26,154 bases of DNA from Actinomycetota bacterium (GTDB lineage Bacteria; Actinomycetota; Acidimicrobiia; Acidimicrobiales; UBA8592): positions 1 to 26,154 of the forward strand of contig PAYW01000040.1 in NCBI GenBank assembly GCA_002715425.1. Reading direction: 5' to 3'. The translations under genes were made by a program, and so were the position numbers. Shown here piece after piece: positions 1,638-22,832 of the stretch; positions within the stretch are counted from its first letter, which is position 1; every line of letters begins with the position of its first letter. The notes under the pieces are model-generated. The model made no database searches, was not told the DNA's origin, and worked only from the letters and a program-made list of their open reading frames with translations.

Positions 1638-3605
1638 ATGTATGAAAAACTTTTTGAACCAATAGATGTCGGACCAGTCACCATCCCTAATCGCATCGTA
1701 CGATCAGCACACTCGACCGCTCTTCCCCTGAAAAGACTAATCGCATATCACGAAGCAAGAGCTGTCGGCGGGGTAGGGATGAGCACACTTGAAGCGACTG
1801 GGGTGCATTTGTCTTCGCCCGCTATGAGAAGCATCATTCCACTTCATGATGATGCTGTCATACCTTTTTACAAAGAACTTTCTGATGCTCTTCGCCCTCA
1901 CGGGATGAAAATACTCCAGCAAATTTATCACCCGGGATCTGCACGCGCTCCAGGGAAAGGAACGTTCCAAATCTCAGCTAGCGCTATCCCTAACCCAATA
2001 GCGGGAGGTATACCTACAGCAATGACAATCCCCATGATTGAAGAAATGATCGAAGCATTCGCATCCGCAGCTCGCCGATGTCGAGATGGAGGACTCGATG
2101 GAATAGATATCCATGCTTCTAGTGGTTATTTGATCGAGCAGTTCCTTTCACCTGCAAATAATATCCGTACTGATAGATATGGAGGATCGCTAGAAAACAG
2201 GATGAGATTCCTCATGGAGATAATTGAAGCGATACGTGAAGAAGTCGGGGCAGATATATGTGTTGGGATCCGCCTACCCAACGAAGAATATATCCCAGGA
2301 GGCTTAACAGCAGCGGACAATGCAGAAATAGCAAAAATTGTCGAACCCCATGTTGATTACATCTCTCTTCATATGGGCTCTTACTGGCGATTTCACAAAC
2401 TGCTCTCACCAATGGATGACCCTCTTGGCCATGAAATGCCAGCCAACGAACCCATCATAAAGCAGATAACCAAACCAACGATCGTTGTTGGACGGATCAT
2501 GACTCTCGACCATGCCGACACAATTGTGAGTGAAGGGCAAGCCGGCATGGTATCTATGGTGCGAGCCTTAATAGCTGACCCTGGCCTCGTGAACAAAGCA
2601 AGACAAGGCAACACGGATCAAATTCGACCTTGTATAGGGTCAAATTTCGGTTGTGTTGGACAGATCATGTCAACAGGAAAGCTTGGCTGTGTGGTAAATA
2701 TAGCCGCAGCCCAGGAAACAGAAGTGACTTTCGAACCCGAAGGAAAACCCAAGGCAATTGAAAAGATACTCATTGTAGGAGGTGGCCCAGCAGGTCTGGA
2801 AGCAGCACGAACAGCAGCGATCATGGGACACGAAGTGCACCTGCACGAAGCGACCAAGCACCTTGGAGGGCAGGTAAAAATCGCAGCAACGGCTCCAAGT
2901 AGGTCTGATATCGGCTCAATCACAAAATGGCTCGAATCAGAAATGGAACGCCTCAAAATTAACGTCACCCTTAATTCTTTGGTCGACCCGGACATTGTAG
3001 AAGAACTTGATCCGGACAGAATTATCCTCGCCACAGGGTCAACACCACGAAAAGATGGATTTCAATTAACGACCCCCATTTCTCCTCTGAAAGGGTTCGA
3101 TCTTGATCATGTCTACTCAAGTTGGGATATCTTCGGATTCGGCGGAAGAATAACGACAGATGGACCGGCGGTCGTTTTTGACGATACAGGAACCTTCGAA
3201 GCTATTTCTGTTGCAGACAAACTACTCGAACAGGGAATGAAAGTGACCTTTGTGAGTAGATACGAAAGCCTTGGTGCTTCGCTGCCGTATCCTCCTGCAA
3301 CTGTCGAAGCGGCCAAAGAAAGACTCATGTCACAAGATTTTGATTTTATCGGCGGACATTATCTCCAAGCCATCACAGATGATGAAGTCCTTATCGGAGT
3401 CCCATTTACAGAACGCATGCGAACCCTCTCCGCCAAAACAGTAGTTCTTGTCACATACAACCATCCAAACCGAGAGCTCGGAGACTACTTAAAGGAACAA
3501 CTTCCGGAGATGTCTGAGAAAATCCACACCGTCGGAGATGCATCTGGAACTAACGGAATCATGGACGCGATTCATCAATCCGCTAATCTGATTCGGGCGC
3601 TCTAG
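1638..3605 (+). CDS. NADH:flavin oxidoreductase / 2,4-dienoyl-CoA reductase-like fusion
   Basis: A 655-residue two-module reductase like E. coli FadH and trimethylamine dehydrogenase. An Old-Yellow-Enzyme TIM barrel binding FMN covers residues 1 to about 330 (LFEPIDVGPVTIPNRIVRS at the start, then IHASSGYLIEQFLSP and RTDRYGGSLENRMRF). A C-terminal dinucleotide-binding half opens with VGGGPAGLEAA (GGGPAG at 381-386). Y164 in SSGYL matches the position of the catalytic tyrosine of FadH. The linker should carry a 4Fe-4S cluster with four cysteines spaced C-x2-C-x3-C-x11-C; here they are C332, S335, C339 and C351, so the second ligand is serine. The likely role is reduction of an unsaturated acyl-CoA or enone with NAD(P)H. 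It lies 32 bases after the ACAD with a purine-rich GGGGAAGCGAG before the ATG, and 10 bases before the P450, as part of one operon. Confidence 0.9.
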   Translation: MYEKLFEPIDVGPVTIPNRIVRSAHSTALPLKRLIAYHEARAVGGVGMSTLEATGVHLSSPAMRSIIPLHDDAVIPFYKELSDALRPHGMKILQQIYHPGSARAPGKGTFQISASAIPNPIAGGIPTAMTIPMIEEMIEAFASAARRCRDGGLDGIDIHASSGYLIEQFLSPANNIRTDRYGGSLENRMRFLMEIIEAIREEVGADICVGIRLPNEEYIPGGLTAADNAEIAKIVEPHVDYISLHMGSYWRFHKLLSPMDDPLGHEMPANEPIIKQITKPTIVVGRIMTLDHADTIVSEGQAGMVSMVRALIADPGLVNKARQGNTDQIRPCIGSNFGCVGQIMSTGKLGCVVNIAAAQETEVTFEPEGKPKAIEKILIVGGGPAGLEAARTAAIMGHEVHLHEATKHLGGQVKIAATAPSRSDIGSITKWLESEMERLKINVTLNSLVDPDIVEELDPDRIILATGSTPRKDGFQLTTPISPLKGFDLDHVYSSWDIFGFGGRITTDGPAVVFDDTGTFEAISVADKLLEQGMKVTFVSRYESLGASLPYPPATVEAAKERLMSQDFDFIGGHYLQAITDDEVLIGVPFTERMRTLSAKTVVLVTYNHPNRELGDYLKEQLPEMSEKIHTVGDASGTNGIMDAIHQSANLIRAL

Positions 3606-10213: not shown

Positions 10214-10409
10214 ACCGCCGAAAACCCAGCGGCTTATTGGCCGAAAGCAAACCAAGCTCGATTGGGTTGCACATCGTCAACAGCCCACACGGGTTTCTTC
10301 CACTGTAAGACATTTTTTCCCAAACGCCACGTATGCGCTAGCTTTTAATTTAAATAAAGTGTTGGAGAAGGCAGATAAGGTACTGATTCACGGCAAGGTT
10401 AGGAAGAAG

Positions 10410-11261
10410 ATGGATCTAGAGGGAAAAGTAGTCGTTATTACCGGCGGTGGTGCAGGTATCGGAGCCGCCATGGCAAGAGCTATGGCAAAGGCTAACGCAA
10501 GACATATTGTTGTGACTGATATTAATTTTGAGAATGCGCAGGCCGTAGCAAGCGAAGTTAACGGCTCCGCGAGGAAGGTCGATGTATCCAAGGAAGAGCA
10601 AATAATCGAGCTTGTAAACGATGTAGAACAACAACATGGCCCCATCGACCTCTTTTGTTCAAATGCTGGTTTCGTAACTAATGCTGGATTAGAGGACACT
10701 AATGAAAGGATCACTCAGATGTGGGAGGTGCATGTCATGGCTCACATTTATGCCGCTAGAGCTGTTCTCCCACAAATGATTGCAAACGGTGGGGGATACT
10801 TACTAAATACAGCCTCAGCAGCTGGCCTTCTAACGCAGATCGGTTCTCTTGCTTACTCGGTTACAAAAGGGGCGGCAATTTCTCTGGCTCAATGGCTAGC
10901 TATCACGCACCATCATCAAGGGATACGGGTTTCAGTACTTTGCCCACAAGCGGTCCGGACGGACATCATCATAAATAGCCCTGACGCAGTGCTCGGAGAA
11001 GAAGCAGAATGGGAAGAAGGGGGAGTTGCAAGTTCCGATGGAATACTTGAACCAGACCTAGTAGCCCTCGAGTGCATATCGGCAATTAAAGATGAAAGGT
11101 TTCTTGTCCTCCCGCACCGTCAAGTTGAAGATTACATAAAATATCGGGCAGAGGATATGGATCGATGGCTTAGCGGCATGCGACGCTTTCAGGAGAAATT
11201 ATATGACGGGGATGATCTGCCAGGGGACATCATGGGGTTAGACCGTTGGACGAGTTTGTGA
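10410..11261 (+). CDS. Short-chain dehydrogenase/reductase (SDR), classical type
   Basis: A 283-residue NAD(P)-dependent oxidoreductase. The cofactor motif TGGGAGIG is at residues 11-18, the NAG motif appears as SNAGF, and the active site has the serine region NTASAAG and YSVTK with Y149 and K153. I start at the ATG at 10410, which has AGGA five bases upstream; an in-frame GTG at 10359 would add 17 residues that lack SDR character. The C-terminal extension, ending near RWLSGMRRFQEKLYDG, is longer than in the smallest SDRs. The stop overlaps the ribosome site of the PhyH gene, eight bases before its ATG, so the two are one operon. It most likely oxidises an alcohol produced by the neighbouring dioxygenases. 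The substrate is unknown. Confidence 0.9.
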   Translation: MDLEGKVVVITGGGAGIGAAMARAMAKANARHIVVTDINFENAQAVASEVNGSARKVDVSKEEQIIELVNDVEQQHGPIDLFCSNAGFVTNAGLEDTNERITQMWEVHVMAHIYAARAVLPQMIANGGGYLLNTASAAGLLTQIGSLAYSVTKGAAISLAQWLAITHHHQGIRVSVLCPQAVRTDIIINSPDAVLGEEAEWEEGGVASSDGILEPDLVALECISAIKDERFLVLPHRQVEDYIKYRAEDMDRWLSGMRRFQEKLYDGDDLPGDIMGLDRWTSL

Positions 11262-11268
11262 GGTTTAG

Positions 11269-12186
11269 ATGAGCGAAAACCAACCAAGTCGAAGATCTTC
11301 TGATCTGCCGGGAACTATAGAGAAATTGACCAAAGATTCAGTATCGCTTATCACTGACGATCATATGGAACAATATGGAAAAGACGGAGTTGTCATGGTC
11401 AAGAATGTCTTGCATCCTGAATGGCTCCTATTGCTCGAAGTTGGATTAGAGCGTGTCCTCAATGAAAGCTCTCAGCTTCTTCACAAGTTCTTCGAGGGTC
11501 AGGAAGGAGAATTTATCGAAACTATCCGGAACTTCGATGTGATTCCAGAAATTCGACGTTTTGTCTATGACTCTCCCATAGCTGACCTTGTCGGAAAGAT
11601 TATCGGCTCCGATAATCTTTGGTTGTATTCGGATGAGTTCTTCGTCAAAGAAGGTGGGAATGCTGAGCGAACTCCGTGGCATCAAGATACGCCATACTGG
11701 CCTATCCAAGGAGAACAGATTGCATCCGCTTGGATATCTCTTGACGCTCTGTCGAAAGCAGAATGCCTTGAATACGTAGCTGCTTCACATAAGGGGACAA
11801 TGTTTGATGGATTTAGCCCTTCTAAAGTTTCAGAAGATCCAACTGCCCCTCATTATGGAGATCAGTTGCCGCCGCTTCCAGACATTGAAGCTAATAGGGG
11901 GGCGTACGATATACGGTCTTGGGAAATATCTCCTGGTGATGTCATATTTGCTCATCCCGGCGTTTTGCACGGAGGTGGCCCTACAGGCCCTGATAGTAAG
12001 AGAAGGGCTATAACTATTCGCCTATATGGCGACGATCTTCGTTATGCGAAGCGGCCACCTACTCGTCCAACTGTCCCGTTAACTCCAGGATTATCTTTGT
12101 CGTTAAATCCAGGGGACCCCTTGCGTTCCCCCTGGTACCCCCGAATACGGCCAATCCCAGCGCATATTCGAGCTGAATGGGAGTGA
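11269..12186 (+). CDS. Phytanoyl-CoA dioxygenase (PhyH) family protein
   Basis: A 305-residue Fe(II)/2-oxoglutarate-dependent oxygenase of the double-stranded beta-helix fold. The iron-binding HxD is H138-Q-D140 in TPWHQDTPYWP, and the distal histidine is most likely H234 in HPGVLHGGGPTG, followed by basic residues (SKRRAITIRLYG) that would bind 2-oxoglutarate. The family includes phytanoyl-CoA 2-hydroxylase and many bacterial hydroxylases of small molecules. A GTGAGG site lies five bases before the ATG. It directly follows the SDR and precedes the SCP2-PhyH fusion, so the two dioxygenases may act on related substrates. No signal peptide or membrane segment. The family is firm; the substrate is not known. 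Confidence 0.92.
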   Translation: MSENQPSRRSSDLPGTIEKLTKDSVSLITDDHMEQYGKDGVVMVKNVLHPEWLLLLEVGLERVLNESSQLLHKFFEGQEGEFIETIRNFDVIPEIRRFVYDSPIADLVGKIIGSDNLWLYSDEFFVKEGGNAERTPWHQDTPYWPIQGEQIASAWISLDALSKAECLEYVAASHKGTMFDGFSPSKVSEDPTAPHYGDQLPPLPDIEANRGAYDIRSWEISPGDVIFAHPGVLHGGGPTGPDSKRRAITIRLYGDDLRYAKRPPTRPTVPLTPGLSLSLNPGDPLRSPWYPRIRPIPAHIRAEWE

Positions 12187-12239
12187 ATTGACCTGCGAAG
12201 ATTCGTCGGTTGAACGTTCCAATTCCCCTTGATAGGCAT

Positions 12240-12269
12240 TTCAAGATACAGAACAGCGTCTACTATACT
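12240..12269 (+). promoter_or_regulatory. Candidate promoter giving a leaderless transcript
   Basis: TATACT at 12264-12269 is a good -10 box, with TTCAAG at 12240-12245 as a weak -35 box across an 18-base spacer. The ATG of the SCP2-PhyH gene begins at 12277, seven bases after the -10 box, so transcription would start at or next to the start codon. No Shine-Dalgarno site is present before this gene. Leaderless mRNAs are common in Actinobacteria. Confidence 0.4.
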
Positions 12270-12276
12270 TCTTCGT

Positions 12277-13452
12277 ATGAAGACCTTGAACACATATTTC
12301 GGTTCGACTGATGTTAAAGACTTTTACTCCGGCAAGATCACTGATCGGGCAGCAGGACGACGTGGAGCTGAAGTAGCAGAACTAGTCGGAGACGGCAGAT
12401 CAATCGGCATCCAGTTAGAAGATGAGCACGGATGGACGTTTAGGGCGCACGAAGGCCAAGTTGTCGTTGAGGAAGGAACAGAGAGTGCCTCTCTCGTTAT
12501 TTCAACGGACGTGGCTGCATGGTCTGATCTCATTACCGAAGCCTGGTCAATTATGGGGCTAGCAATTCAAGGAAGAGTAACTATTGAGAGAGGAAGCTTC
12601 AATCATCTTGCGAAATGGGAACCTGCTTTACAGGGACTATACAATGACCGCCCCATATGGTTCCCTTCCAAAAAAGTAATAGGCGATGGTTATACATTTT
12701 CAATGCAGGACAGATTCACCGACATGAAGAATGTTTTGGATCGTTTGGGCTTCCTTCTTGTTAAGGGAGTCTTTTCGGATGAAGAGATTAAAAACATGAG
12801 AGATGAAGTCGAGGATCGTCGGGTCGCAGCAGACCCAGAAGATAAGCGTTCCTGGTGGGCTACAGATGGTCAAGGGAAAGAGCAATGCTGCCGAGTAACC
12901 TATCTCAATTATGGATCTCAGCTATTTTCTGACCTTCCCTATGACGAAAGGTTGCAGTATCTCGCAAGGTTATCGGCCAGACCCTTAATACCTGCACCGG
13001 ATCATGGTGATGGAATCGCTGCTGTAATAAAAGTGCCAGGAATAACTGAGGGGTTATCAGATCTTCCTTGGCACAGGGATTGTGGAATGGGAGGCCACCC
13101 ACTCCTCTGCCCTGGGCTAAACATGGGCATACAGTTAGATCAAGCATCGGAAGAATCAGGCCAGTTGAAATTCTTGCCCGGTACAAACAACTACGCTGGC
13201 GGAGCAGAGCACGCTGACCGGTCGTCAGCGATAATCCCCATCAACGCTGAACCCGGCGATGTTACAGTCCACTATGGCCACACGTTACATATCGCTCCAC
13301 CGCCTACAGGATCTGGAAGCTATAGGAAAACAGTCTATGTCAGTTTCCATATCCCAGAGTATCTGGAGGTCCTTCCCAAAGGACAAGGCTACAACGATGT
13401 GCTATTCACCCATGGTGACGGCAGAGTGCGATCTCCTCAGGAGCGAATCTAG
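12277..13452 (+). CDS. SCP2 domain fused to a PhyH-type dioxygenase
   Basis: A 391-residue two-domain protein. Residues 1 to about 125 look like a sterol carrier protein 2 (SCP2) domain: a strand-rich half (GWTFRAHEGQVVVEEGTES) followed by WSDLITEAWSIMGLAIQGRV and a closing helix. SCP2 domains bind hydrophobic ligands such as sterols or acyl chains. The rest is an Fe(II)/2-oxoglutarate oxygenase of the PhyH type, with H266-R-D268 in DLPWHRDCGMGGHP, H338 in HTLHIAPPPTG and R350 beyond it. The fusion suggests that the carrier domain delivers a lipid to the oxygenase. I start at the ATG at 12277, where a -10 box precedes it at leaderless distance; an in-frame TTG at 12229 would add 16 residues but lacks a ribosome site. 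Its TAG abuts the stop of the convergent glnS. The substrate is unknown. Confidence 0.82.
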   Translation: MKTLNTYFGSTDVKDFYSGKITDRAAGRRGAEVAELVGDGRSIGIQLEDEHGWTFRAHEGQVVVEEGTESASLVISTDVAAWSDLITEAWSIMGLAIQGRVTIERGSFNHLAKWEPALQGLYNDRPIWFPSKKVIGDGYTFSMQDRFTDMKNVLDRLGFLLVKGVFSDEEIKNMRDEVEDRRVAADPEDKRSWWATDGQGKEQCCRVTYLNYGSQLFSDLPYDERLQYLARLSARPLIPAPDHGDGIAAVIKVPGITEGLSDLPWHRDCGMGGHPLLCPGLNMGIQLDQASEESGQLKFLPGTNNYAGGAEHADRSSAIIPINAEPGDVTVHYGHTLHIAPPPTGSGSYRKTVYVSFHIPEYLEVLPKGQGYNDVLFTHGDGRVRSPQERI

Positions 13453-15236: not shown

Positions 15237-16442
15237 ATGAGTTCGGGATTCGACAAAGGCCGACTACAAAGAGTCGCTGAGCTATGTGATCGGTACGTCA
15301 GCGATGGAAAGTTCCCCTGCGCGCAAGTGCAAATAGCTCATAGAGGTTCAGTTGCTTTGCGACACACAGTGGGATCAGCAGATATCGAAAGCGGGGCCTC
15401 TCTCCGAGAAGACGCTATTTTTCGCATCTACTCAATGACAAAGCCAATTACATCCATAGGCCTGATGCAGCTATATGAAAAGGGCCTCTTAATCCTTGAG
15501 GACCCGGTGGCGAAGTACATTCCGGCATTTGCAGATCCACAAGTCCTCGTAGGTGGGTCCTACCTTAATCCTGTTACCCGTCCAGCGCAGACAGAGCTAA
15601 CCATAAGAGACATGCTCCTACACACTTCAGGACTGACGTACGGATTCCACTACTCAAACAATTTGGACAAAATGTACCGGTACAAAAAAATCGCCGGTGC
15701 TGCAGAAGGAGCTAACGGGACGCTTGAAGACAAAATTAATGAACTTGCAGCCCTGCCACTCCTATTTGATCCTGGAACTGCATGGAACTATTCAATGTCA
15801 ACTGATGTGTGCGGAAGATTAATCGAAGTGATTAGTGGGTTAGGTCTGGACGAATATTTAGAAGAATATGTGCTTGGTCCGATCGGAATGAATGACACAG
15901 GATTTTACGTGAAGGAAGGAAAAGGTGATCGCTTTACTTCGAACTACGCCATCACGCCAAAGGACCCACTTATGTTGATAGATCCCGCAAGCGAGAGTCC
16001 ATATCTAACGCAGCCCCTATTTCTTTCCGGAGGTGGGGGGCTAGTGTCAACTATCGATGACTACCAACGTTTCGTGGACATGCTACTCAATGGGGGGGAG
16101 ATCGATGGCAATCGAATCATTGGGCGCCACACACTAGAATTCATGACGCTAAATCATCTACCGGGTGGTGCAACACTTAACGAATTAGGCCAATCGACCT
16201 TTACTGAAACAGCAATGGAAGGAATGGGATTCGGGCTCGGATTTTCAGTACTCGTTAACCCGGCTGCAAATGCTGCTTTAGGTTCAGTAGGGGAATTCGC
16301 ATGGGGAGGAGCTGCTTCGACTCGATTCTGGGTAGATCCTCTGGAAGAAATCACCTGCGTCTTTATGACCCAATTCATGCCTTCGAGTCATTACCCGATC
16401 CGTCGGGAGTTAAAAGCAGTCGTCTATCAGGCGTTGAAATGA
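15237..16442 (+). CDS. Serine hydrolase of the class C beta-lactamase/esterase EstB family
   Basis: A 401-residue hydrolase of the penicillin-binding-protein-like fold. The nucleophile motif is S66-M-T-K69 in IYSMTKPITSIG, the second motif is at Y185 in WNYSMSTDVCGRLIE, and a glycine-rich FAWGGAAST near residue 355 stands in for the KTG box. There is no signal peptide, so it is probably a cytoplasmic esterase, lactonase or transesterase and not a secreted beta-lactamase. The start has GGGGG five bases upstream. It precedes the P450 pair on the same strand across 110 bases and could hydrolyse an ester or lactone in the same pathway. The exact reaction is unknown. Confidence 0.88.
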   Translation: MSSGFDKGRLQRVAELCDRYVSDGKFPCAQVQIAHRGSVALRHTVGSADIESGASLREDAIFRIYSMTKPITSIGLMQLYEKGLLILEDPVAKYIPAFADPQVLVGGSYLNPVTRPAQTELTIRDMLLHTSGLTYGFHYSNNLDKMYRYKKIAGAAEGANGTLEDKINELAALPLLFDPGTAWNYSMSTDVCGRLIEVISGLGLDEYLEEYVLGPIGMNDTGFYVKEGKGDRFTSNYAITPKDPLMLIDPASESPYLTQPLFLSGGGGLVSTIDDYQRFVDMLLNGGEIDGNRIIGRHTLEFMTLNHLPGGATLNELGQSTFTETAMEGMGFGLGFSVLVNPAANAALGSVGEFAWGGAASTRFWVDPLEEITCVFMTQFMPSSHYPIRRELKAVVYQALK

Positions 16443-16542
16443 TGGGCAGTGTCTAATGGAAAAGACAGCGAATGCGTTCTACTCAATAATCAGCCAAGAA
16501 GAAATTAAGAAACAAAGACAGACCAGTAGTACCCTTAGGGGG

Positions 16543-16548
16543 AGGAGG
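16543..16548 (+). promoter_or_regulatory. Shine-Dalgarno site fixing the P450 start at 16553
   Basis: AGGAGG within a longer purine run lies four bases before the ATG at 16553. A TTG directly upstream (16550) is in frame but would leave only one base of spacing, so the ATG is the likely start. The rest of the 110-base gap after the hydrolase shows nothing else I can name. Confidence 0.75.
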
Positions 16549-16552
16549 CTTG

Positions 16553-17998
16553 ATGACAAGAACAAATCCTTTTGATGCAGCCTTAGAAGGTTTTCCGAAT
16601 AAGATCGGAGAAGGAGCGGAGGCCTATAGGAAATTTCCGCATATGCCCGTTGGTGAAGCAGTAGATATGGGGCATGACGAGAATGGAATTCCGCTGTTCG
16701 ATCCCAGGATATTCGATAGCGGTGAGTTCGCACGCAACCCGTACCCCTATTACCGAATCCTGCGCGATCACTATCCGGTCTTCCATGACCAATTACACAA
16801 TTGTTATTTTGTAACACGTTATGAGGACATCACAGACTGCTACTTTGACGAAATTGGATTTAACACAATACCCAAAGGATCTTCGAGCGGAGTCCTTGGA
16901 AATACACAACTCGAACTGAGCGGAATAGAACATCGTCGGCGACGCAACATCTATGGTCGCCACCTCGTCGGAGCCGCGCTGACCAAACGAATCCACGCTC
17001 TTAAGGAACTAGGAAATGAGCTGATCGATGAATGGTGGGACCCTAATAACAATAAGGGCATAGAAATAAACGAGGACACTAATACAGTCACCCTAGAACT
17101 TGGGAAAGCCTTTGCGAATGAATTCCCTATCTCCGTAGTGGCACAAGTCCTGGGGATCCCCCAAGACGCTCGCGAACAATTCACTTGGTGGTATGACGCA
17201 ATGATGTCTGGTCTTGGTGGATCTGACACGCACCATGAAGGGCTCGAAGCTAGGCAGGATCTTGAAGAATATGTCGAAGAACTTGTTGAAGAGCGTAGGG
17301 CGAATCCGACGTACCTCCATGATGAAAACGGTAATGAGATATGTTTAGATATCATCTCCGAACTGTGCCATTCAGAGATTGATGGTTCGGTTATGTCAAC
17401 AGAAGAGATCACGTCCTTCATCGCTCTAGTAGTTGGGGGAGGGGGAGAAACAACTCGAGGAGCGATCTTGAATCTCTGGTACCTTCTCTTGCAGCACCCT
17501 GATCAATACCACCAGGTCAAAGAGAATGAAGAATTATGGGACACGGCATTTCATGAAATGTTGCGACATTCAACTTCTATAGGCGGTCAGCCGCGCCACA
17601 ACACGTTCGATATAGTTATGCACGGCGTTCATATTCCCGCAGGTTCCTTGATGCACATGGTTGACGTATCAGCTAACCACGATGAAAGAATCTTTAAAGA
17701 CCCTGAAGACTTTAATATCTTCCGTGATGACCTATACAGCGGGAAAATTCTGCGCTCTGGCCATAATAAGGAAGGGAAATGTAGCCATATGGCATTTGGC
17801 GTGGGCCCCCACTTGTGTCCCGGAGCATGGATATCCCATCAGGAAACAGTAATAGGCTCACAAATCCTTGATGGAGTTTTCAAAAACGTCAGAATAAACA
17901 CAGATCGTATGCCTAAAGACATCGATGGGAAATCTCTTGCCCCTATAGGGTTGAAATCTATTCGTGAACTATGGCTTGACTTCGATCTCCCGAGTTAA
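16553..17998 (+). CDS. Cytochrome P450, catalytically intact member of a tandem pair
   Basis: A 481-residue soluble P450 with an N-terminal extension of some 50 residues compared with ordinary bacterial P450s. Heme contacts are complete: C-helix H127 followed by four arginines (EHRRRR), I-helix GGGGETT with E299/T300, ExxR as E335-M-L-R338, and the heme loop FGVGPHLCPG with thiolate C422. It should be an active monooxygenase. The next gene begins after only two bases and encodes a related protein with matching blocks (ARDPYPLLEILRENYP against ARNPYPYYRILRDHYP here) that has lost the heme ligand. The pair therefore looks like a duplication in which one copy stayed catalytic. No dedicated P450 ferredoxin is adjacent; the nearest electron carrier is the Rieske ferredoxin at 20087. 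The substrate is unknown. Confidence 0.94.
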   Translation: MTRTNPFDAALEGFPNKIGEGAEAYRKFPHMPVGEAVDMGHDENGIPLFDPRIFDSGEFARNPYPYYRILRDHYPVFHDQLHNCYFVTRYEDITDCYFDEIGFNTIPKGSSSGVLGNTQLELSGIEHRRRRNIYGRHLVGAALTKRIHALKELGNELIDEWWDPNNNKGIEINEDTNTVTLELGKAFANEFPISVVAQVLGIPQDAREQFTWWYDAMMSGLGGSDTHHEGLEARQDLEEYVEELVEERRANPTYLHDENGNEICLDIISELCHSEIDGSVMSTEEITSFIALVVGGGGETTRGAILNLWYLLLQHPDQYHQVKENEELWDTAFHEMLRHSTSIGGQPRHNTFDIVMHGVHIPAGSLMHMVDVSANHDERIFKDPEDFNIFRDDLYSGKILRSGHNKEGKCSHMAFGVGPHLCPGAWISHQETVIGSQILDGVFKNVRINTDRMPKDIDGKSLAPIGLKSIRELWLDFDLPS

Positions 17999-18000
17999 GC

Positions 18001-19293
18001 ATGGAGTCATACGAGGCTGATTTCGAAGATGAACCTACACCCGAGCCTGGGTACAGAACCTACGAGGTGTACCAACGGGAGCGCGTTGGAGAAACGACAA
18101 ACTTAATAAAACCACGAGAACTGATATCGGATGAATACGCTCGTGACCCTTACCCACTGTTAGAGATATTACGTGAGAACTACCCGTGTTATAGGGATTG
18201 GTTGAGCAACTGCTTTTGGATTACGCGCTATGACGACGTAACATCCGTGTTTGCTGACGAGCAAAATTTTGAGACTCGACCAAAACGCTGGTATCTGGAT
18301 TCTATAAACTATGGACGTGACCTTTGGAAACACCTTCCTATTCAGTGGGCATATGAGAAAAAAATCGATGAGAATATAAGAACTGTCTCAGAGGAAGCGA
18401 TATGGTCGCTCGACGGATCAACAATGGATCTTGCAAAAAATTTCGCTGCACGGATCCCATTGGCACTCTGGCAAAAGATACTTAATATTCCATTAGAACA
18501 GGCTCAAGAGTTCGCTCACCTTTACCTCCAAATGCAACGTGGTGCCAGATGGAATCCACAGTTTAGACAAAAAGCCTTGCAGTCCATGCAAGGATTATCC
18601 GACCTTCTTGAACCTATATTCAACGACCGTTGCCAAAATCCGGAAGATGATTTTATTAGTGCAGTTGCGCAACTCCAGCTATCAGGGGCTCCTCCTACCG
18701 TGAAGGACCTCGTTACAACAATCCTCGAACTAGATCATGAGACTTTACATGGGGGGCTTTCGAATCTTTGGCTGAACTTGCTTACAAACCCAACAGAGAT
18801 GGAAAAAGTAAGAAATGATCATCGTCTCATGAAATTCGCGTGGTTAGAAACACTTCGCTATTCTCCGCCAGTTATGATCGCTGATAGATTCGCTCGCCAG
18901 GAAGTCGAAAGATTCGGAAGGTTGATTCCCAAAGGGGGTTTACTTCGATGCTCAGCTGCGGCAGCAAATCGAGACCCTCGCCAATTCGATGAACCTAATG
19001 TATTTATTATTGGGAGAAAGGATCTCTGTCAGCGAGAACCACGCGGACAGTATCGTGCTGATGGGCTTCCATCTGGAATAGCATTTGGCCTTGGAAGGCC
19101 ATCCATTCATCCTGCAGTTCCTAAGGGTAGGCCAAGATCGAGATATGCATTGATAAGGGATGCGGCTGTGACGGCTTCGCTGCTGCTTCTTGAAGAAAAG
19201 CCCTCAGTGAAAATTGCTGATGGGGCAGAACCGCACCTTACCTGTTCGCAACTAGGAGAAATGCACACCTGCTGGGAATTGCCGGCCTGTTAA
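18001..19293 (+). CDS. P450-like protein lacking the heme-thiolate cysteine
   Basis: A 430-residue P450-fold protein directly behind the intact P450 and homologous to it along most of its length (RDPYPLLEILRENYP, WLSNCFWITRYDDV, ANRDPRQFDEP). The K-helix ExxR is kept (E283/R286), as is an acid-threonine pair in the I helix (E247/T248). The glycines before that pair are replaced (LELDHET), the C-helix His/Arg cluster that contacts the heme propionates is WAYEKK (116-121), and the heme loop reads FGLGRPSIHPA (362-372). The position seven residues after F362, always cysteine in P450s, is I369, with H370 next. The other two forward frames do not restore the motif and the frame is open throughout, so this is not an obvious frameshift. 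It may be a non-catalytic partner like EryCII or DesVIII, or a P450 with another axial ligand. Confidence 0.88.
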   Translation: MESYEADFEDEPTPEPGYRTYEVYQRERVGETTNLIKPRELISDEYARDPYPLLEILRENYPCYRDWLSNCFWITRYDDVTSVFADEQNFETRPKRWYLDSINYGRDLWKHLPIQWAYEKKIDENIRTVSEEAIWSLDGSTMDLAKNFAARIPLALWQKILNIPLEQAQEFAHLYLQMQRGARWNPQFRQKALQSMQGLSDLLEPIFNDRCQNPEDDFISAVAQLQLSGAPPTVKDLVTTILELDHETLHGGLSNLWLNLLTNPTEMEKVRNDHRLMKFAWLETLRYSPPVMIADRFARQEVERFGRLIPKGGLLRCSAAAANRDPRQFDEPNVFIIGRKDLCQREPRGQYRADGLPSGIAFGLGRPSIHPAVPKGRPRSRYALIRDAAVTASLLLLEEKPSVKIADGAEPHLTCSQLGEMHTCWELPAC

Positions 19294-19301
19294 TAGAACT
19301 C

Positions 19302-20072
19302 TCAGGATTCTGGATCGGGTAATACGCAGGGAAATCCTGCATATAAACCTATGTTGTCACCAGTCCTACCTTCAGGCCCTTCAAGGAGAAGTTGAACAAG
19401 AACTTCTGCGGTTTCTTCTGGCTTCATCCAGCTTTCAACCCATGCCGGATCTGGATTTGGCCCACTCCATGATCTAATCATCTCGCTGTCGGTTGCCCCA
19501 ATACACAGGTTATTAACCCTGATGTTGTAGCCGGCTAAGGACTTGGCCCAGTCGAAGGCAAGCCCATTTAGTGCCCATTTTGATGCGTTATAAAGATCCA
19601 TATTCCCATGGCCGTGATGACGAGAAGAGCCGGGCGCAGGTTTGACGTGGTCGGTGCTGACATTTACGATCTCTCCGTAATTCTGTTCCACCATTATGGG
19701 GGCAACAGCACGACCGAAAAGAAACGCTCCGCGAATATTCGAACCAAATAATCTTTCGTAATTTGATAAGGACTCGTCCCAATCGTCTAACGGACCAGTT
19801 CGTAGGACTTCTCCGGCGTTATTTACAAGAATGTCAACTGATCCAAACTTGGCAACAGTCGTATCTACAACCGATCGAACGTGGTCTGGGTCAGAGACAT
19901 TACCAATATGCCAATCGGCGCCAATCTGTTGTCCGACTGTAGATACCGATTCTCGTTTATCTGTTATGACGACATTACAATCTTCCTCAGAAAACCGTCG
20001 AGCGAACGCAGCGCCCACGCCCTGGGCAGCTCCTGTAATGATGATAACTTTCTCCTTAAGCGTGATACTCAT
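19302..20072 (-). CDS. Short-chain dehydrogenase/reductase (SDR)
   Basis: A 256-residue classical SDR using NAD(P). The nucleotide-binding motif TGAAQGVG is at residues 13-20, NNAG is in DILVNNAGEV, the catalytic serine is in VNVSTDH, and the YxxxK pair is Y161 and K165 (LYNASKWALNG). An insert rich in His and Gly (SSRHHGHGN) lies between the serine and the tyrosine. It is the last gene of a minus-strand operon, 14 bases after the Rieske ferredoxin, with a GAAGGT site eight bases before the ATG. A likely role is oxidation of the diol or alcohol formed by the Rieske oxygenase; this is inference from gene order. It converges with the P450-like gene across an eight-base gap. Confidence 0.92.
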   Translation of the reverse strand: MSITLKEKVIIITGAAQGVGAAFARRFSEEDCNVVITDKRESVSTVGQQIGADWHIGNVSDPDHVRSVVDTTVAKFGSVDILVNNAGEVLRTGPLDDWDESLSNYERLFGSNIRGAFLFGRAVAPIMVEQNYGEIVNVSTDHVKPAPGSSRHHGHGNMDLYNASKWALNGLAFDWAKSLAGYNIRVNNLCIGATDSEMIRSWSGPNPDPAWVESWMKPEETAEVLVQLLLEGPEGRTGDNIGLYAGFPCVLPDPES

Positions 20073-21900: not shown

Positions 21901-22380
21901 ATGTTTGATTTGTTGCCGGAAAGGCTCGCTTGGTACATCGTAGGTCCTTCTCTTGGACTTCTGATTGTGATCTTTTTTCTTGTGCTAAACCAACCATTAG
22001 GCGCTAGCGGTGCTTATGTGCATTCGTTAAAATTGATTCAACGTAAAACTGACGTCGCAGTTTGGAGAATCTGGTATTTCTTCGGCATCTTCTTAGGAGG
22101 AATTCTCACAACACAGATTTTCAGAGATTCAGGGAAGATCCGATCAGGATACTCAACGATGATAGAGGTGATGCAAGGCGGACCAACAATACTTATAGTT
22201 TTCGTAGGTGCTGTTGTCATGGGCTACGGAGCAAAAGTAGCTGGAGGCTGCACCTCTGGTCATGGCATATGTGGAACGTCCCAACGCTCCGTCGCTTCCA
22301 TGGTTGCGACAGGGACCTTTATGACCACAGCAGTCCTTACAACCCTTGTTATCAGAATATTATCTGGTGGTGATCTATGA
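21901..22380 (+). CDS. YeeE/YedE (DUF395) family transporter, first half
   Basis: A 159-residue membrane protein with about four hydrophobic segments, beginning with WYIVGPSLGLLIVIFFLVL. The family signature GGCTSGHGICGTSQRS is present with C117 and C124. YeeE/YedE proteins such as TsuA move thiosulfate or related reduced sulfur compounds across the inner membrane using cysteines. In many bacteria the two pseudo-symmetric halves are separate genes, as here. A GAGGG site lies just before the ATG. The stop overlaps the start of the second half by four bases (ATGA), so the halves are made together. The upstream 63 bases are shared with the divergent Rieske operon. Confidence 0.88.
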   Translation: MFDLLPERLAWYIVGPSLGLLIVIFFLVLNQPLGASGAYVHSLKLIQRKTDVAVWRIWYFFGIFLGGILTTQIFRDSGKIRSGYSTMIEVMQGGPTILIVFVGAVVMGYGAKVAGGCTSGHGICGTSQRSVASMVATGTFMTTAVLTTLVIRILSGGDL

Positions 22381-22832
22381 AGAACTCTATGGGGCTTCTT
22401 TTCGGAGCGTGCTTTGGGGGCTTACTTGGCGCAGCAAATCTGCATGAGTATGACACCATTCATGCAATGTTAAGGCTCGATGAATTCGACGTCTATGGTC
22501 TAATGGCGTCTGCCATCGTAGTTGCTGCAGGGTTATTGTGGTGGCTTGAACGTCGGCCAACTTCCACGGTGTTTGATGGGAGATTAACGCTTCAACGATC
22601 TCGCCCTAAAAGACACCACATCATAGGGGGAGGACTTTTCGGAATCGGATGGGCAATAGCGGGAACCTGCCCAGCGCCAGCTTTAGTGATGGTTTCATCA
22701 GGAGCGCTCTATGGCTTAATCGTCATTCTTGGTATCTTTATTGGAATTTACCTTGGAGATCGCAACAATATTTCATCTTCATTTGGAGATGGAGAGCACC
22801 ATTCCTCTAGTGAGGAATTTATCTCACTTTAA
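22377..22832 (+). CDS. YeeE/YedE family transporter, second half
   Basis: A 151-residue membrane protein with hydrophobic segments at the N-terminus (LLFGACFGGLLGAA), the middle (LMASAIVVAAGLLWWL) and the C-terminal half (GLIVILGIFIGIYLG). The conserved motif WAIAGTCPAPALV carries C98, the position that faces the pore in related sulfur transporters. It should pair with the preceding gene to form a complete channel for a reduced sulfur compound. The C-terminus is short, hydrophilic and Ser/Glu-rich. A small hairpin lies within the last 32 bases of the gene. No sulfurtransferase or rhodanese gene is adjacent, so the downstream use of the sulfur cannot be read from here. Confidence 0.87.
   Translation: MKNSMGLLFGACFGGLLGAANLHEYDTIHAMLRLDEFDVYGLMASAIVVAAGLLWWLERRPTSTVFDGRLTLQRSRPKRHHIIGGGLFGIGWAIAGTCPAPALVMVSSGALYGLIVILGIFIGIYLGDRNNISSSFGDGEHHSSSEEFISL
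22801..22818 (+). terminator. Possible terminator hairpin inside the end of the transporter gene
   Basis: ATTCCTC and GAGGAAT form a perfect seven-base stem around a TAGT loop, followed by a moderately T-rich stretch ending TCACTTT. The stem is AT-rich and the U-tract is interrupted, so termination would be weak. It sits inside the coding sequence, just before the stop and the convergent cupin gene. Confidence 0.3.

Follow-up and report, generated by a model that had tools for sequence, protein, structure and literature searches.

Analysis of a 26,154-nucleotide stretch of an Acidimicrobiales genome (contig PAYW01000040.1 of assembly GCA_002715425.1, hereafter the window) demonstrated that an intact cytochrome P450 gene, P1, is followed after two bases by a gene, P2, whose product has the P450 fold and lacks the heme-thiolate cysteine. 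The pair is real and no artefact, and P2 is a member of a large conserved family whose named members come from Acidimicrobiales, Alphaproteobacteria and Gammaproteobacteria. We favor, at a probability of roughly 55%, the reading that P2 serves P1 as a non-catalytic subunit devoid of heme within a hetero-oligomer. P1 opens with an ATG at 16553 (an in-frame TTG at 16550 lies one codon earlier) and stops at 17998, and P2 runs from an ATG at 18001 to a stop at 19293. Apart from two details revised below, these findings agree with the first-pass annotation of the sequence, which had reported an intact P450 two bases ahead of a cysteine-less homologue with an open frame of 430 amino acids. P2 scores above the PF00067 gathering cut-off of 22.8 bits in the Pfam scan of the window proteins and has a P450 fold, and it thus belongs to the P450 superfamily (Table 1).

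At the heme loop, P2 reads FGLGRPSIHPA where P1 reads FGVGPHLCPG. The ligand cysteine of the FxxGxxxCxG signature is found in all 99 rows of the P1-family alignment (A2) and in 0 of 247 distinct members of the P2 family, which carry no cysteine at column 369 or anywhere across columns 362–374. These members derive from 218 proteins (the distinct listed proteins plus P2) and 38 genome-locus rows, giving 256 aligned sequences from which nine repeats were dropped. Homologues retaining the cysteine, named beforehand as the observation that would tell against the finding, were sought among these 247 and none was found; the nearest cysteine-bearing relatives form separate P450 clades. The family sample consists of top matches, namely the best 120 of 2634 matches (E ≤ 1e-3) to P2 and the best 120 of 1416 matches to a member from Iodidimonas, and more distant members, possibly with a cysteine, could lie beyond it.

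Two gapped alignments, a joint L-INS-i alignment of 14 P1 and 20 P2 proteins and an hhalign profile–profile alignment of A1 with A2, place one additional P2 residue before the ligand position (PSIHP versus PHLCP). The earlier assignment of I369 to the cysteine position therefore holds by an ungapped count from FxxG but in neither gapped alignment, where H370 faces C422. About nine further P2 residues follow A372 ahead of helix L in the L-INS-i alignment. The I-helix is altered as well, reading ILELDHETLHG in P2 and VVGGGGETTRG in P1. The glycine loss proposed earlier for this helix was confirmed, as G295 and G297 of P1 (99/99 each) align with E243 (Glu in 236 members, Asp in 11) and D245 (247/247), two positions that are always acidic in the P2 family. 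The ExxR pair is retained, as also proposed, with E283 and R286 present in 246/246 distinct members with residues there, and the meander arginine R339 is present in 245/245.

The region of helix C was less straightforward. The segment K95–F148 of P2 is 26 residues shorter than its P1 counterpart, K108–F187, and the placement of the gap differs, L-INS-i opening one block over P1 109–130 and hhalign splitting it. The WAYEKK segment (116–121), which had been taken to replace the His/Arg cluster of the C helix, does not lie opposite P1 127–131 in either alignment; the single possible counterpart of the cluster is R106, opposite R131 of P1 by hhalign. The AlphaFold2 models contain two helices in this region of P1 (124–138 and 140–161) and one in P2 (112–135), and the helix C of P1 is itself modelled at low confidence, with predicted local distance difference test (pLDDT) scores of 46–58. 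Judging by these models, helix C is probably gone from P2.

The first-pass annotation had offered a histidine-ligated P450-fold protein as its alternative, in which P2 would still bind heme with H370 replacing the cysteine. The position of H370 opposite the ligand cysteine by two aligners, the histidine that 189 of the 245 distinct members occupied at column 370 carry there, and the invariant ExxR and meander arginine would suit this arrangement. However, the remaining 56 members carry Phe (26), Tyr (25), Asn (2), Trp (2) or Arg (1), so that the histidine is not conserved, and in genus g339 the members sampled lack it although their loop is otherwise retained (GTPSKFPALP and GTPSKYPALP). The probable absence of helix C, the acids in place of the pocket glycines and the extra residues right after the ligand position likewise argue against it. 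This alternative was thereby weakened, and a histidine-ligated heme in P2 is unlikely, with a slim chance of being correct given the residues found.

The P2 heme loop appears instead as a rebuilt, invariant segment (DLCQREPRGQYRADGLPSG...HPAVP..RPRS), in which R345, E346, R348, G349, R352, D354, G355, L356, P371, P374, R377 and S380 are identical in 245/245 members. The blocks 341–350 and 351–360 have conservation values of 0.95 and 0.90, the highest and third highest among the 218 proteins, yet AlphaFold2 leaves them unplaced in the monomer (pLDDT 53 and 52). Such a combination would be typical of a stretch that becomes ordered when a partner or ligand is bound. An N-terminal segment is similarly conserved, with R19, E22, Q25, R26 and R28 each present in 216 of 218 proteins (the other two being gaps) and block pLDDT scores of 49–51. 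C343 was considered as an alternative thiolate: it occurred in 218/218 proteins at first, but once loci were added 10 of 245 members had Val at this position against 235 with Cys, and it was rejected as a family-wide heme ligand.

Loss of the cysteine, together with a P2 gene broken over two frames in one relative (L049, in the draft genome G008), could point to a recent pseudogene or to a sequencing or assembly error. The absence of the cysteine throughout the family excludes an indel artefact near the heme loop, and the same P2 gene stands in an open frame at loci from five named public genome records, in separate assemblies. The ratio of nonsynonymous to synonymous divergence (dN/dS, Nei–Gojobori) against the related loci L001–L004 was 0.075, 0.174, 0.067 and 0.094 for P2 and 0.050, 0.016, 0.025 and 0.032 for P1, and neighbouring genes gave 0.011–0.213 where dS was measurable; dS reached about 1.7–1.9 at L003, near saturation, and more distant P1 and P2 pairs were saturated. 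With values of 0.067–0.174 (P1, 0.016–0.050), P2 is under purifying selection rather than decaying. By dN/dS and family-wide cysteine loss the pseudogene or artefact explanation is ruled out, its probability being negligible.

The taxa named in the sources for listed members include Acidimicrobiales, Ilumatobacter, Sphingomonadales, Emcibacter, Iodidimonas, Pseudomonadales and Gammaproteobacteria, and the protein names, where given, are mostly cytochrome P450, pulcherriminic acid synthase or hypothetical protein. Five cases of two P2 copies recorded on contigs of identical length, for example 2,322,019 and 134,054 bases (P0097/P0249, P0084/P0248, P0092/P0277, P0099/P0270 and P0102/P0273), one with the locus tags GC201_04635 and GC201_04645 and several named from Alphaproteobacteria, suggest that P2 was duplicated in that class. 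Among sequences of viral contigs, 45 stretches had candidate matches and none was confirmed, and all 605 matching plasmid records of PLSDB were below 60% identity to P2, the best 40 of the 605 lying at 23–29%.

P1 and P2 were found in the same 7 of 395 genomes of the class Acidimicrobiia (E ≤ 1e-70), with P2 directly downstream in each, and P2 was present in 2 of 396 genomes of a phylum sample. A set of 60 genomes related to the nearest one gave strong matches to P2 (at least 425 bits) in 15 of 18 genomes of genus g1 and in one genome of the same family (G019); the loci L001–L004 used above and the matches in G011, G001, G016 and G013 are not independent. The three genus genomes lacking a match (G004, G007 and G018) are all drafts, and in G018 the contig ends inside a P1 that is 95% identical over 373 amino acids. 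In family f7, 23 P1-type loci were found in 22 of 221 genomes, six of which are also among the seven above. P2 lies directly downstream at 22/22 testable loci. At two of these the contig ends within P2, and at the remaining locus it ends within P1.

One genome (G771) carries a second, divergent pair (L097:8335–10486), counted among these f7 loci, in which P1' is 47% identical to P1 with its cysteine intact and the P2' I-helix, LLEVDIINIES, is further degraded; the contig ends ahead of the heme loop. Another protein, P0017 (638 amino acids), resembles part of P1 fused to P2. By eye, its joining stretch looks like a frameshift read-through, and it was taken only as a sign of adjacency.

Phylogenetic analysis suggested a common origin of the two genes. 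In a tree of 71 proteins, P1 and P2 were sisters with support of 93/85, and in a tree of 33 proteins that included three glycosyltransferase activators with 87/85; each of P1 and P2 formed one clade, at 100/99 and 100/100, respectively, in the larger tree and at one or the other of these values throughout. The stem of P2 is long (1.78 and 1.55 in the two trees). The activators fell outside the starred branch holding P1, P2 and the CypX-like P450s. Forcing P2 together with them lowered the likelihood by 29.65 (p = 0.0335 in the approximately unbiased test), a comparison that involves three activators only, of odd composition and on a long branch. P2 is thus likely the direct sister of P1 and likely derives from a P1-like P450, apart from the EryCII-type proteins. 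The earlier proposal that the degenerate copy was retained as a partner of its catalytic paralogue is supported by the joint occurrence of the genes, their adjacency, their likely sister relationship and the purifying selection on P2.

Heme-less P450 homologues are mainly known as helpers of glycosyltransferases in antibiotic clusters. P2 resembles the EryCII/DesVIII group (TIGR04515) in its P450 fold, the missing ligand cysteine, a gene position beside the presumed partner, a probably missing helix C (in P2 by model only) and a conserved N-terminal segment ahead of the P450 core. In the structural report, EryCII and DesVIII activate a neighbouring enzyme, and EryCII, whose complex was solved, lacks helix C and is bound to its partner via an N-terminal helix (PMC3391682). 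However, P2 scored 82.3 bits against TIGR04515, whose cut-off is 343, whereas true activators used as controls scored 353.3 and 474.5. The controls (L122 and L123) have a glycosyltransferase gene beside them and P2 has a P450; the heme-loop region is short by eye in three activators and is rebuilt and invariant in P2; and the tree clades are separate, a joint clade being disfavored in the test above. Score, tree and topology test thus give no support for placing P2 within the EryCII family. EryCII was absent from the best 50 rows of the fold search, which has no bearing either way.

The closest solved relative by sequence for both P1 and P2 is CYP134A1 (CypX, pulcherriminic acid synthase), which is also among the closest by fold, and some P2 family members bear its name in a source. 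CypX differs in possessing the ligand cysteine, and P1 and P2 scored 162.1 and 117.1 bits against the model of cyclodipeptide-associated P450s (TIGR04538), far under its cut-off of 500. The Pfam scans of the window listed no domain of a cyclodipeptide synthase. The name pulcherriminic acid synthase should not be taken as a function. A further likeness is offered by EutEFG of the euthailol cluster, a P450 divided among three genes, for which it was proposed that a catalytically inactive P450 supports a neighbouring enzyme structurally (PMC11574762). That case concerns one cluster, a fragmented P450 without a conserved family, and an assisted enzyme, EutC, that is a hypothetical protein. Among the literature matches listed, bioRxiv preprints and most subscription papers being outside their scope, no description was found of the P2 family or of a heme-less homologue paired with its sister P450.

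In the explanation that we favor, a single P450 gene would have been duplicated to give P1 and P2. P1 would have retained the heme-thiolate chemistry, and P2 would have become a heme-free, non-catalytic subunit after losing the cysteine, the glycines of the distal pocket and probably helix C. The two proteins would then form a hetero-oligomer in which P2 binds P1 by means of the conserved N-terminal segment (18–31) and the invariant rebuilt heme loop, and either stabilizes P1 or shapes its substrate pocket; SDR2, the product of the adjoining short-chain dehydrogenase/reductase (SDR) gene, may subsequently act on the product of P1. The absence of heme from P2 is predicted from its residues, and the physical contact, its interface, the effect on P1 and the part played by SDR2 are likewise inferred.

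Several observations weigh against this explanation. P1, a heme protein by sequence that was folded without heme, also has pLDDT scores of 46–47 at its near-invariant B–C loop, so low confidence combined with conservation may reflect the absence of a ligand and not of a partner. The many invariant charged residues of P2 would fit a new active site too. P2 evolves faster than P1 (about 58% versus 83% identity in many genus g1 regions), the drafts G004 and G007 of the same genus gave no P2 match, the sister grouping is unstarred in either tree, and the scan of 395 genomes scored the four best candidates per genome only.

In a less likely but serious alternative, P2 is a second enzyme or a ligand-binding protein of the same pathway, its fold emptied of heme and fitted with a new active or metal-binding site. 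The residues proposed for such a site are E243, D245, H246, E247, H250, H370, R345, R348, R352 and R377. The two always-acidic positions in place of the P1 glycines and the invariant charged loop are consistent with it, as is an HExxH motif, which 206 of 247 distinct members have in their I-helix, and gene adjacency is compatible with a shared pathway without contact. The motif is missing in the other 41, E247 being Gln in 19 and H250 not His in 14, and an HE pair is common in the I-helices of ordinary P450s (AGHETT in 6 of 36 P450s listed); for these two reasons a metal site at HExxH is kept merely as a possibility. A bolder version would make P2 the second catalytic half of an obligate P450–P2 complex, with a non-heme site in the emptied pocket, built from the two acidic positions, the HExxH of most members and the invariant Arg/Glu/Asp loop, and with the oxidized substrate passed between the folds. 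This is quite improbable; if true, a P450 scaffold would carry an active site of non-heme type and work as one machine with its heme-bearing twin.

Table 1. Coordinates of the P1–P2 pair, its sequence elements and the retained neighbour in the window.
Feature	Position	Strand	Basis
P1, intact cytochrome P450, presumed catalytic partner	16553..17998	+	481 aa; PF00067 87 bits; AlphaFold2 model resembles P450s
P1 heme loop FGVGPHLCPG, residues 415-424, Cys 422	17795..17824	+	sequence and alignment
P2, P450-fold protein without heme-thiolate Cys	18001..19293	+	430 aa; PF00067 33.5 bits
P2 N-terminal conserved segment YRTYEVYQRERVGE, residues 18-31; candidate partner-binding element	18052..18093	+	conservation
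P2 I-helix ELDHETLHG, residues 243-251; Gly to Glu and Gly to Asp versus P1	18727..18753	+	both alignments
P2 ExxR, E283-R286, kept	18847..18858	+	246/246 distinct members with residues
P2 rebuilt heme loop, residues 341-380, DLCQREPRGQYRADGLPSGIAFGLGRPSIHPAVPKGRPRS	19021..19140	+	conservation versus pLDDT
P2 His370 codon, opposite the ligand Cys of P1	19108..19110	+	L-INS-i, hhalign
SDR2, short-chain dehydrogenase, convergent neighbour retained with the pair	19302..20072	-	PF00106

Where contigs reach, the gene order in genus g1 is esterase, in some cases a CoA-transferase, P1, P2, the convergent SDR2, a Rieske ferredoxin and a Rieske oxygenase. Of 13 related regions, 10 have the CoA-transferase gene immediately ahead of P1, and it is absent from the window (16442–16553). 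SDR2 stands beside P2 in all 11 testable regions of these 13 and in 5/5 loci of a second set. In G171, P1, P2 and SDR2 were the only window genes recognized, with a TetR regulator upstream, and in three other f7 regions (L093, at the region edge, L094 and L095) a Rieske oxygenase-like gene lies within 2–7 kb of the pair. The nearby SDR, Rieske oxygenase, CoA-transferase and PhyH genes hint that the substrate may be a lipid- or terpenoid-like compound undergoing catabolism.

The constancy of SDR2, together with the EryCII/DesVIII precedent for heme-less homologues that activate a neighbouring enzyme (PMC3391682), raises the further alternative that P2 is an EryCII-like activator of SDR2, of the Rieske oxygenase or of an unlinked glycosyltransferase, and not of P1. 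However, P1 remains constant upstream of P2 even where the other neighbours vary (L037 and L092–L096), and in L094 the SDR-type neighbour of P2 shares just 25% identity with the SDR2 of the window, compared with 68% for P1. As the first-pass annotation had noted, there is also no glycosyltransferase here, none being found in the Pfam scan of the 24 window proteins. An activator of another enzyme is accordingly improbable, and a subunit of P1 remains the preferred role for P2.

Other features of the window were also recorded. A third, ordinary P450 (3616–4821) falls in a clade other than that of the pair and adjoins an old-yellow-enzyme-type oxidoreductase (1638–3605), and an acyl-CoA dehydrogenase lies at 493–1605. 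An SDR gene followed by two PhyH-type dioxygenases occupies 10359–13452, in an order kept in related genomes, and in the second dioxygenase the PhyH domain is preceded by a weak match to SCP-2 sterol transfer. Two short adjoining sulphur-transport genes (PF04143) lie at 21901–22832. No Rfam family and no tRNA was found, and promoter- and terminator-like sites showed no excess over shuffles. The related genome G001 contains 23 P450-type model matches (E ≤ 1e-5) in 1.8 Mb at 76% completeness and seems rich in P450s for a genome this small.

Partner roles were already known for heme-less P450 homologues; P2 differs in that its presumed partner is a P450 that is likely its own sister. P2 represents a separate and widespread heme-less P450-type family that is tied to a P450 and not to a glycosyltransferase. 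Counts of P450 genes made by Pfam or by automatic naming take in such proteins, which probably hold no heme. Ilumatobacter coccineus carries the pair, and the question is therefore directly testable. If the hetero-oligomer is true, P450s can possess dedicated pseudoenzyme subunits.

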